Below, piece after piece: positions 27,459 to 30,927 of a stretch of 64,000 nucleotides of DNA. The notes under the pieces were generated by a model. That model saw only the letters and a program-made list of their open reading frames with translations. It was not told the origin of the DNA and did no database searches. The stretch is from Litorimonas taeanensis (lineage in GTDB: Bacteria > Pseudomonadota > Alphaproteobacteria > Caulobacterales > Maricaulaceae), in contig NZ_RBII01000001.1 of NCBI RefSeq assembly GCF_003634015.1, positions 1,178,001 to 1,242,000 on the forward strand, in the 5' to 3' direction. A program made the translations under genes and the position numbers. Within the stretch, counting starts at the first letter, position 1. Each line of letters opens with the position of its first letter.

Positions 27459-27536
27459 TCTTCCGGCATGGGCAAAATGATGGATGCGTTTAAAATGAAG
27501 ACTTCTGAGTAATCTATATAAAGAAAGCGGGGGCAT

Positions 27537-28463
27537 ATGATTAAATTTCTAACCTTAACACTTGCAGGGTCAGCCTTAGTATTGGCGGCTTGTTCGAACG
27601 GTACGGCGGAACCTGCTCCCTCTGAGAACCCAGATGCCTCCACGGACGTCTCTTCTGTCGCCTCTCTGGAAATTTCCGAAAAATTTTACTGTGACGCGCA
27701 ATTGAATGGGCAGCATTATTTTTACCTCGATCCCGAAAACACCAATAAGGGCATTGTCGGATTTGAATTTTCTAAGGCCTATCAAACGGCCTATCCTGAT
27801 GAAGTGGCCCCTTCGAGCCACATGCAAAGCGCAGTTTCGGGCTCTGGCATGCGTTATGTAAACGACCAGATGGAATTCCGCGCCAAAGGCGTAAACGGCT
27901 TTTTGACCCTCTCGGACGGCTCGACCTTAGAATGCAGCTTACAGCCTGTTAAAGACCAGAACGAAGCGTCAGAAACTGTCGGCGGCAGTTTGGCATTTGA
28001 ATGGAGCGCGAATGGCTTTGAGACCCTCCCCGCTGATTTCAAATGGCAGGGCTATGGCGGCGATTCTCCTATCTTAATGTTATCTGTTCCCGAGACCGAT
28101 AACTTCGTTTGGATATCTCAATGTGATGGCACAAATGTCACGAGCTATGTTCAATTGATAGCTGCGGGGCTTCGCAATGGCGACCAAACGACGTTCCAAG
28201 TCGAGACCGATAAAACCGCAACGCGTGTCTATCCGATAGAGGTTGGGCCTTTACCCTTTGGCGACGGTGGGGCGGATGGCGCGATTTCGCCTATTCTGGT
28301 GCAATCCCTAGACGATCCCATGTTCACTGATTTAACCCAAGGCGAATGGGGCTATTTCCAACTTGGCGAAGGCGACAAAGCGAGCAAACTCCGCATTAAT
28401 TTGTTTGGCAGTATCAGCGCGTGGAATAGCTTTATCCCCGCCTGTCGAAATTTGAATCAATAG
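27537..28463 (+). CDS. lipoprotein of unknown function
   Basis: A 308-residue protein starting MIKFLTLTLAGSALVLAACS with lipidated Cys19, then a low-complexity Ala/Glu/Pro/Ser linker (20-45) and a beta-rich domain with several Cys (FYCDAQ, TLECSL, SQCDGT, PACRNL). No family is recognised. A short hairpin (GCGGCGT...ACGCCGC, 28471-28497) follows the stop and may act for both this gene and the convergent one. It is preceded by the cyclophilin lipoprotein at 79 bases. Confidence 0.65.
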   Translation: MIKFLTLTLAGSALVLAACSNGTAEPAPSENPDASTDVSSVASLEISEKFYCDAQLNGQHYFYLDPENTNKGIVGFEFSKAYQTAYPDEVAPSSHMQSAVSGSGMRYVNDQMEFRAKGVNGFLTLSDGSTLECSLQPVKDQNEASETVGGSLAFEWSANGFETLPADFKWQGYGGDSPILMLSVPETDNFVWISQCDGTNVTSYVQLIAAGLRNGDQTTFQVETDKTATRVYPIEVGPLPFGDGGADGAISPILVQSLDDPMFTDLTQGEWGYFQLGEGDKASKLRINLFGSISAWNSFIPACRNLNQ

Positions 28464-28470
28464 CGCCTAA

Positions 28471-28497
28471 GCGGCGTTGGCCAAGGGGGCACGCCGC
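28471..28497. terminator. hairpin between convergent genes
   Basis: GCGGCGT and ACGCCGC pair perfectly over 7 bp with a 13-base loop. There is no T run, so terminator activity is uncertain, but the position between two convergent stops fits. Confidence 0.4.
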
Positions 28498-28510
28498 CAC
28501 TAGACAGGCA

Positions 28511-28843
28511 TCATAACCGTCCCAACATCCCAGCCATTTCACGCTCTAACCGCAAAAGGCTCCGCGACTGGGGTGTATCGGGCGGAACGGATTTCAGCGG
28601 AGGCAGACCCGCCATAGCGCGTTGATGATTATAGAGCTCAAGCTCCATCGCCTCAAATCTGGCCGAATGTCGTAAGACAGTCAGGTCATGGATTAACTGC
28701 GCTTCTGTGTCGCTTAGATCTTCTGGCAGGCGCGCGCGCCTTTGTGCTTTTAACTTTTGGATATTCTCCTCCAGTCGTAAACTTTGATAATAATGTTTTC
28801 TCGCCCTGTGACGGGCGTGATTAAACCGTTTCGCGCGGGGCAT
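28511..28843 (-). CDS. basic protein of unknown function
   Basis: A 110-residue Arg/Lys/His-rich protein. The first 40 residues are strongly basic (MPRAKRFNHARHRARKHYYQ) and the rest is helical with a Leu-rich spacing suggesting a coiled coil (about 25-90). There is no signal peptide. High net charge and helix content fit a nucleic-acid-associated or ribosome-associated protein, but no family is recognised. It borders the gene-poor 28.8-30.8 kb stretch. Confidence 0.55.
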   Translation of the reverse strand: MPRAKRFNHARHRARKHYYQSLRLEENIQKLKAQRRARLPEDLSDTEAQLIHDLTVLRHSARFEAMELELYNHQRAMAGLPPLKSVPPDTPQSRSLLRLEREMAGMLGRL

Positions 28844-29783
28844 TCTCTTTATTCCTTCTTATTTCTGTCTCTCTTGATTGGCTCTCTTTGATAGGTACTA
28901 CCTGATAAGTATTGCGAAAAATGGGCGTCTGCGGGAGGTCAAAGAGTGTCGGTCTGGAAACCGTGGATAGCTAAAAATTGATTTTCACACCCTTACACAG
29001 CAAAGATGCCCGACACATGGCCAAGGCCGAAACCTTGCCCATAGAATTCAAGGCGCTTTGCGCCCCCGCAGTGACATGTTTCTCCGCTGACGGCCAAAAG
29101 ACCCCTTATTACAAGGCGTTAATAGCACGCATCAGACCGCCTAATAGCTTTCGGCCCGTTACAGCCAAAATCGTTTAACGGCGCATGTCATCCCCTCTTC
29201 TAAACCAACGTACGCTTAGGCCCATAAGAGCGGAACATCCCGACAATACCCCATAGAAATGAGGCGGGGAAACAATAGGTAAAAAACGCGGCCACACAGG
29301 GGAGTACGCAAGGTTAAGATGAGAATCTTTGTGTAGGAGCGCAGAAATAGTGCGCCGCGCAGCACCATTCCGATTAAGGTCAAAGTCTATATCAATATCT
29401 ATGTCAATGGTTTCACCAGAGGCTTAGAGACACAGAGCCTTAGAGATATGGTAACGAAAAGGAGAGATTAGACATATCCGCACAACCAAACCCTCCGCAC
29501 AATAGTTATTGATTTTCTTAGGTTTTCACGATTTGTTCGTATCCATGGAAAAGTATCACATACTTGCAATGCAATTTTTAGAGCAAAGAAAACACAAGAG
29601 TTATAGTGCAGAGAAAACTGCACAGAAAAAATAGAGATAAACACTGGACTCTCTTGTTTGATTATGATTTACAGTTAAACAGGCATTGCAAGAGCTCCCA
29701 TCCCGATTCGGAACGTGCGCCAATTTATTCAATGCCAAGGTCTACTTTGGACGATGACCTTAATGATTCATTAGGAGCTAATT
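28844..29783. other. 940-bp stretch without a convincing gene
   Basis: Base composition varies and no open frame has a ribosome-binding site plus normal codon use. Short frames at 28978-29178 and 29606-29830 start with TTG or GTG and lack both. Repeats seen: two copies of CTTAGAGA near 29427-29448, and a 6-bp hairpin GTGCAG-AGAAAA-CTGCAC at 29606-29623 upstream of the 172-residue gene. No tRNA, SRP RNA, tmRNA or RNase P signature was found. Confidence 0.45.
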
Positions 29784-30302
29784 ATGGCCAAGTACGACAA
29801 TGTTATCAAAAAAATCATCTCCAAATATGAAAAGTCCTTAAGCAAACATATGCCAGGTGTGGGAAATTGGGATGTTTGGACTGTTGATAAGGCGGCTATA
29901 TCGGATATGTTTGAGGAGGTTAAACATCTTCGTTCCATTACGAAGCCCGTTCCCAAGACACTTGGCGACATATCAGACCTTCCTGAAGAGCTTAGAGCCG
30001 AACTTTCAGCCATCAAGACCGACGATGTTGAGGATCAAATTTTTACAATCATCAATGCCTCTGACGACCGCGAAGCCAATATAGATACGATTTTAGTCGA
30101 ACTTTATCGTCGCTTCGGAACTGTCCACAAACGCAATTACATAACGAATAAGTTGTGGAGAATGGTCAACAAGAGTGAGATGTTATGGAATGGTGAAAGC
30201 GGTAAGGGTTACTACACAACCAAAGAGCCTAATAATTCAGGTGATACAGCAACCCAACGTAACAGCGACGACCTCGATTTAGACGAACAAATCCCTTTTT
30301 AG
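29784..30302 (+). CDS. unknown protein with winged-helix-like region and SSB-like acidic C-terminal tip
   Basis: A 172-residue protein with a good AGGAG ribosome-binding site seven bases before ATG. Residues 1-80 are helical and charged. Residues 97-146 (IDTILVELYRRFG, YITNKLWRMVNKSEMLW, GKGYYTT) look like helices plus a beta wing, as in winged-helix DNA-binding domains; this is inference. A disordered Asn/Asp/Ser linker (147-162) leads to the last ten residues DLDLDEQIPF. That tail resembles the acidic tip of bacterial single-stranded DNA-binding protein (DDDIPF), which recruits repair and replication proteins through its final Pro-Phe. There is no OB fold, so this is not SSB. Neighbours are unknown elements only. 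Confidence 0.7.
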   Translation: MAKYDNVIKKIISKYEKSLSKHMPGVGNWDVWTVDKAAISDMFEEVKHLRSITKPVPKTLGDISDLPEELRAELSAIKTDDVEDQIFTIINASDDREANIDTILVELYRRFGTVHKRNYITNKLWRMVNKSEMLWNGESGKGYYTTKEPNNSGDTATQRNSDDLDLDEQIPF

Positions 30303-30547
30303 GCCGCAACTATGGAGAGACTAATGTGATAAGAATAGGGAGCGTAACCACCGGAACCGTTACGTTACCCCAAAACCAAAAGAACCGCATCTTAACCCTG
30401 CTACAACAGGACGATGCGGCTCTTGGTTCGGTAGTAAGCCCGCGCTACCAACTATTAAGCCAGTGTGCAAGTTACCCCTGATCAACAATAGGATTCTGAC
30501 ACATAGAAGCGAATAGTTCAAGGTGCAACTTGATACGGAGTCATATT
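30303..30547 (+). other. run of three hairpins (candidate structured RNA or leader)
   Basis: Between the 172-residue gene and a 33-residue ORF. Hairpin 1: CGTAAC/GTTACG (30343-30364) with flanking GGG/CCC. Hairpin 2 (30376-30426): CCGCATC/GATGCGG with an inner CCTG/CAGG stem and an outer imperfect CCAA/TTGG extension. Hairpin 3: GGTAG/CTACC (30430-30449). A perfect ATA-flanked palindrome AGTCATATTATGACT follows near 30539-30553. Such density of perfect stems outside genes suggests a structured RNA, but no known family is matched. Confidence 0.35.
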
Positions 30548-30649
30548 ATGACTGGTGTTTGCTTTTGCTTTCACGTCCGCGCTTATACTCGGGAACGCTA
30601 CGGTAGAACCGAATATGTAAGAGCGCATATAAGGTGCCTACACTGTTAA
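30548..30649 (+). CDS. 33-residue Cys/Arg-rich small protein (predicted)
   Basis: ATG at 30548 has a GGAG ribosome-binding site seven to ten bases upstream and the frame stops at TAA 30647-30649. The product starts MTGVCFC, contains the similar segments HVRAYTR and YVRAHIR (an internal repeat) and ends RCLHC. Four Cys (C5, C7, C30, C33) in a CxC...CxxC arrangement could bind a metal. The stop lies inside a terminator-like hairpin. It is short, so expression needs proof. Confidence 0.4.
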   Translation: MTGVCFCFHVRAYTRERYGRTEYVRAHIRCLHC

Positions 30650-30662
30650 GTAGGCTGTTTTA
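30636..30662 (+). terminator. terminator-like hairpin over the small ORF stop
   Basis: GCCTAC-ACTGTTAA-GTAGGC has a perfect 6-bp stem followed by TGTTTT. It overlaps the stop codon of the 33-residue ORF. Confidence 0.55.
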
Positions 30663-30668
30663 AACTCT

Positions 30669-30699
30669 GGAAGGGGGTCATTTGGCCCCTTTCTTTCTA
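30669..30699 (+). terminator. second terminator-like hairpin
   Basis: A GAAGGGG/CCCCTTTC stem is followed by TTTCTTTCT. It comes six bases after the previous hairpin; two in a row would give strong termination before hisS. Confidence 0.55.
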
Positions 30700-30927
30700 T
30701 TGATTGCCTCTAGCTTTTAATCAATATCGCCTTCCACAACGCAGTAACGCTTCACTTACATGACTTGTTGATTATCATTATGCAGGAGCGATAAGTCGAA
30801 CGATGATACGGATCACATAAACGCATCACTCCGAATTATTCGTTTCATGCGCATTGTTTCACTGCTATCTCTCAATGCCCACATAAAACACTTCACCTTT
30901 TCCCCTGCCCCCGCTAAAGCCCCTCGC

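Follow-up and report, generated by a model that had tools for sequence, protein, structure and literature searches.

Results

Locus and gene content

The window, the stretch of 64,000 nucleotides analysed here, holds an open reading frame (29784-30302, forward strand) for a protein of 172 residues (Table 1). The protein ends in DLDLDEQIPF, and the earlier note was thus correct in describing an SSB-like acidic C-terminal tip. The same note had placed the gene in a gene-poor accessory stretch. This was borne out by comparison with genome G015, whose hisS is 92% identical: there about 20 bp separate hisS from the gene for peptidyl-prolyl isomerase, which makes positions 27459-30908 of the window extra DNA. 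In a comparison of 100 related genomes, including 17 from congeners, only the window genome carried the gene, and it did so in one copy. The start of the listed hisS frame probably lies too early (window 30847-30927 would be surplus); homology to relatives starts near the ATG at about 30928.

No family was matched at cut-off by the 172-residue protein in Pfam, PHROG, NCBIfam or PADLOC, and no OB fold was seen; sub-cut-off Pfam matches to DUF7646 and FAM180 were dismissed. By the OB fold (PF00436) the protein is not a member of the SSB family. The absence of an OB fold, already claimed before, was supported both by Pfam, which gave no SSB match, and by AlphaFold2, which predicted helices and a winged helix. 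The PADLOC models for anti-phage defence yielded no accepted match; of five members, a single one hit Avs2, at E 0.032.

Table 1. Coordinates of the features in the window and in related elements (positions without a locus handle refer to the window).
Feature	Position	Strand	Remarks
DNA homology to Robiginitomaculum IS1595 element L022	29566..30699	+	64-69% identity, three blocks
5' UTR hairpin AAGGTC..GACCTT	29737..29761	+	Upstream of ribosome-binding site
Passenger protein, 172 aa	29784..30302	+	Predicted helical hairpin (2-53), predicted winged helix (~78-147), disordered linker, acidic IPF tip
SSB-like tip DLDLDEQIPF, codons	30270..30299	+	Terminal [IVL]P[FW] in 13/13 full-length relatives
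Non-coding stem-loop 3' of gene	30374..30428	+	Compensatory stem changes vs L022 (two sequences only)
Small ORF, 33 aa, MTGVCFCFHVRAYTRERYGRTEYVRAHIRCLHC	30548..30649	+	Kept in L022; NG86 dN 0.38, dS 1.28
Terminator-like hairpin GGGGGTC..GGCCCC, then TTTCTTTCT	30671..30700	+	Common to L022
Hairpin + tRNA-like structure (predicted)	L012:7898-8010, L013:8511-8620, L014:8523-8630, L017:3274-3385, L019:3314-3425		
Transposase subgroup A	L012, L013, L015, L017, L019		
Transposase subgroup B	L016, L018, L020, G970, G1455		Also tip-less G768
Transposase subgroup C	L022		
8-bp duplications	L012, L013, L016		CAAAAAAG, TTTGAAAA, CAAAATTA
8-bp duplications	L019, L020, L022		CAAGGTTG, CAAAGTTA, ATTATATT

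Predicted structure

Two AlphaFold2 models, one with the window protein and one with a Lutimaribacter protein as query, agreed on a helical hairpin and a winged helix, with a tail that is disordered. The mean pLDDT was 75 and the pTM 0.41-0.44, and the domain arrangement is therefore uncertain. In the tail the pLDDT was mostly below 50; burial of the tail, named beforehand as a possible refutation, was not what the models gave, since they left it disordered. A winged-helix fold is predicted for the protein. The possible winged helix of the earlier note recurred in the models, its extent being about 78-147 and not 97-146. Foldseek returned mostly winged helices (forkhead, Fur, linker histone, cullin WHB, viral I73R, F93) with probabilities up to 1.0, yet with E >= 0.045, that is, as weak matches. 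Some winged helices bind only protein, and cullin WHB stands among the top matches. A profile search of solved structures mainly matched designed coiled coils.

Relatives and conservation of the tip

Distant relatives were found first, in a Bordetella phage, a Zymomonas plasmid, an Alcaligenes phage and two Alphaproteobacteria. Scans with the single protein over genome and viral contigs had given no relatives because the peptide patterns were too specific. A scan with core peptides (KxDELDDQ-like plus EASLDQILV-like) returned eleven loci and supplied most of the full-length members; G970 and G1455 were added through whole-genome searches. The searches other than this core-only scan scored the whole protein, where the six tail residues count little. 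In total, 12 further full-length relatives were obtained, from Rhodobacteraceae, a Robiginitomaculum MAG, another genus of the window's order and one Verrucomicrobia-binned MAG, giving 13 full-length members with the window protein. In the tree the latter grouped with Robiginitomaculum L022 (99/98); the branching is compatible with one origin of the tip as well as with several.

All 13 members end in acidic residues followed by [IVL]P[FW]. The window end DEQIPF is joined by DTDLPF, DDAIPW, EDEVPF, ETDIPF, EDPIPF, DSDIPF, DSEIPF (three times), PEEVPF, ETQIPF and DDEVPF, which amounts to eight IPF, three VPF, one LPF and one IPW. G1455 was detected after this rule had been set, and its tip fits. 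Inside the proteins of the same loci, [ILV]P[FW] occurs at a rate of 6e-4 per position. The linker in front of the tip varies from 16 to 34 residues and its resemblance between members is no better than that of shuffled sequence: over 12 sequences, without G1455, the mean pairwise identity was 0.58 for the core, 0.29 for the linker, 0.26 for the shuffled linker and 0.54 for the last six residues. An SSB-type peptide, understood as a terminal acidic-[ILV]-P-F with free C terminus behind a disordered linker, is therefore present throughout (12 members with PF, one with PW), and the question raised earlier, whether the -PF terminus is conserved among homologues, can be answered in these terms.

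Homologues lacking the acidic IPF had been named as a refutation. None occurred in the full-length clade, whereas the distant relatives do lack the tip, which makes it a clade trait. Tip-less are Gemmobacter L021 (G855), phage contig L023, the Bordetella and Alcaligenes phages, Zymomonas, G768 and G416. The idea that the tip was "stolen" from SSB found no support; a tip of six residues can arise convergently. We also considered a link to defence islands and rejected it: the Zymomonas copy, which has a TIR-domain gene and a type I restriction system nearby, is a single, tip-less case.

Transposon setting of the relatives

A transposase of the IS1595 family adjoins the gene in 11 of the 13 tip-bearing copies and in one of seven tip-less ones (Fisher p 0.004, uncorrected for phylogeny or short loci). 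It is of the type DDE_Tnp_IS1595 (PF12762, E < 1e-35) with PF12760, the IS1595 zinc ribbon. In ten cases it precedes the gene in the same orientation, at a distance of about 200-310 bp, and in L022 it lies downstream on the opposite strand; tblastn split the G970 transposase into pieces, and this copy is possibly broken. The transposases that accompany the gene form three subgroups with a mutual identity of about 30%, and two gene orders occur; the link between gene and transposase is hence recurrent. Terminal inverted repeats bracket nine elements (L012, L013, L016, L017, L018, L019, L020, L022 and G1455), and reading of the flanks gave exact 8-bp target duplications in six. The elements of the relatives thus have the DDE transposase, the inverted repeats and the 8-bp target duplication of the IS1595 family. 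From this combination it follows that the gene is a recurrent passenger of IS1595-family transposons, of which it normally is an accessory.

Flanking RNA and small reading frames

By the pattern of paired substitutions, a conserved, covarying and presumably structured RNA flanks the passenger gene. Upstream, near the ribosome-binding site, a double hairpin is predicted with compensatory changes. At the site of the window's 5' UTR hairpin, L022 has AAGGCT..AGCCTT, and the Rhodobacteraceae members have hairpins of their own. The downstream stem of the window and L022 differs from the downstream RNA of subgroup A, which consists of a hairpin and a tRNA-like fold (7-bp acceptor, 5-bp T stem, TTCGA loop, NCC end). 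Over five sequences, 16 pairs of this structure were changed on both sides. ARAGORN and Rfam made no call for the tRNA-like structure within the elements, nor did Rfam at gathering score match anything in the window or within the elements; its matches outside them were ordinary tRNAs and one TPP riboswitch.

Downstream of the passenger, elements of subgroup B (L016, L018, L020, L042) contain a small ORF (MHDCKVTPAMASVIKLAR..) and a conserved, structured non-coding stretch of another kind. Within subgroup A elements L013, L017 and L019, the passenger is followed by a short ORF (QLERFKEAARELGTDDDEERF..) that is likewise conserved. Directly upstream of the G768 passenger, ARAGORN called an odd 96-nt tRNA-Ile (L008:2004-2099).

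The window copy

The blocks of homology to L022 extend into non-coding DNA on both sides of the window gene and end at about 30699, where the L022 transposase sits. No inverted repeats of type A or C were present in the window at up to 3 mismatches, and a search without positive control found no L022-type transposase in the window genome. The single copy in the window is specific to its lineage, a remnant in which neither transposase nor repeats are detectable and which, by these two features, is itself not an IS1595 element. Inverted repeat I1 (29308-29330/30379-30401) was rejected as a pair of transposon ends: it is unlike all three repeat types and one arm falls within the covarying RNA stem. 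Between the window and L022, substitutions at codon positions 1/2/3 numbered 42/37/109, with dN 0.29 and dS saturated. The gene thus bears the signature of purifying selection since the split from L022, part of which may predate the loss of the transposase.

Discussion

The IS1595 setting and the flanking structured RNA are the new points of this work, missed by the earlier note. Searches of the open-access literature turned up no transposon passenger with an SSB-like tip, which is weak evidence of novelty.

RecO and chi are encoded in the host genome, as are two SSBs, whose ends read IDDDIPF and DLDDDIPF. The second SSB, on contig C2 (G000:C2:171094-171393), ends DFDLDDDIPF, and its tip is the closest to that of the window protein. 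RecO, PriA and chi are bound by SSB tips alone, without the linker (PMC7145534). IS transposases bind the beta clamp, and strengthened binding leads to more transposition (PMC4549789). The explanation we favour, and to which we give about an even chance, is a transposon-encoded adaptor that borrows the SSB docking peptide to reach host replication and repair proteins. The N-terminal hairpin and the winged helix would hold either the transposition complex or nucleic acid of the element, such as its ends or the RNA beside the gene; the tip would dock on host SSB-interacting proteins (RecO, PriA, chi or others). Docking would bring the element to sites of replication or repair, or gap-filling and fork-restart proteins to the element. 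The window would then hold a stranded single copy that lost transposase and ends and shows the signature of purifying selection. Retention of the tip in all 13 members beside a randomised linker, most of these members stemming from the core-only scan, argues for an adaptor. So do the predicted disorder of the tail in both models, the recurrent neighbourhood of IS1595 transposases with their repeats and duplications, the RecO, chi and SSB ends of the host, and the two cited findings on SSB tips and the beta clamp. Three points argue against it. The transposon-borne relative G768 is without tip, so the tip is dispensable for carriage by a transposon; the window copy and L014 bear the tip but have no transposase, so a role independent of transposition is possible; and the match to known winged helices is weak. 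Wider still, and in our opinion possible but doubtful, is the proposal that IS1595 transposons carry a protein-plus-RNA module, in which a winged-helix protein would couple the element to host replication or repair through its SSB-mimic tip, and in which the structured RNA, tRNA-like in one subgroup, would belong to the same machinery.

Persistence of gene and RNA without transposase in the window and L014 would also suit a decoy that, by competing for the partners of SSB, weakens host repair or restart; this might, for example, keep the host from removing the element or hinder other mobile DNA, and carriage by the transposon would then mean mobility only. SSB partners can indeed be occupied by the tip alone (PMC7145534). 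SSB is abundant, however, and a single-copy gene would need strong expression to compete; moreover, the recurrent tie to one transposase family argues for a family-linked role. We therefore regard a decoy as unlikely, and as less likely than the adaptor. An acidic tip folding back onto the winged helix to tune nucleic-acid binding, like that of Caulobacter Hfq, is distinctly unlikely. Alphaproteobacteria do have acidic disordered tails with such a role (PMC6561178), and the SSB tip, too, touches its own DNA-binding domain (PMC7145534), but a purely electrostatic tip would not require the fixed [IVL]-P-[FW] kept in 13/13 members, the Caulobacter Hfq tip ends DADD, and the tail was disordered and of low pLDDT in both AlphaFold2 models.

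That the tail binds the element's own transposase instead of a host protein would fit the adjacency of the two genes in 11/13 tip-bearing copies. We consider it very unlikely, as the tip is the same although the transposases of the three subgroups are only about 30% identical, the transposase-less copies in the window and L014 keep it, and the peptide matches a host motif. A chance acidic end on an ORFan, for which the empty first family and database searches spoke, has become next to untenable: it is refuted by the homologues, with conservation in 13/13 against the internal rate of 6e-4.

The adaptor proposal can be placed among known systems. As with IS transposases and the beta clamp (PMC4549789), the element would, by analogy, reach host replication proteins via a short peptide, which here sits on a separate accessory protein and is similar to the tip of SSB rather than to a motif for clamp binding. 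Hfq likewise has an acidic disordered C-terminal tip and a core that binds nucleic acid (PMC6561178), but its tip is without the terminal Ile-Pro-Phe and its core fold differs. The bacterial SSB tip (SSB-Ct, DDDIPF) shares with the passenger the disordered, unconstrained linker followed by acidic residues and Ile-Pro-Phe at the C terminus; the passenger differs in its predicted winged helix in place of an OB fold, its carriage by a transposon and its ends IPF, VPF, LPF or IPW. With ISXO2-like members of the IS1595 family that carry passenger genes, the elements have in common DDE_Tnp_IS1595 with zinc ribbon, inverted repeats and 8-bp duplications. They differ in that the passenger belongs to no known family, has no assigned function and is accompanied by covarying RNA and a small ORF, and in that the window copy is without transposase and ends.

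Docking through the SSB tip is usually ascribed to SSB alone. A protein of a mobile element that has conserved this peptide on another fold would constitute a second, element-controlled entry to the SSB partner network, parallel to the binding of the beta clamp by transposases. The natural tip variants VPF, LPF and IPW are material for specificity studies.

Two minor observations concern the elements of the relatives. L019 is a typical Rhodobacteraceae-type element on a Verrucomicrobia-binned contig (GSL.Bin9), reflecting either transfer or a binning error. The right ends of the subgroup B elements L016 (~9532) and L020 (~4408) lie about 450 and 240 bp from tRNA-Met and tRNA-Phe, respectively, perhaps by chance or through an island preference.
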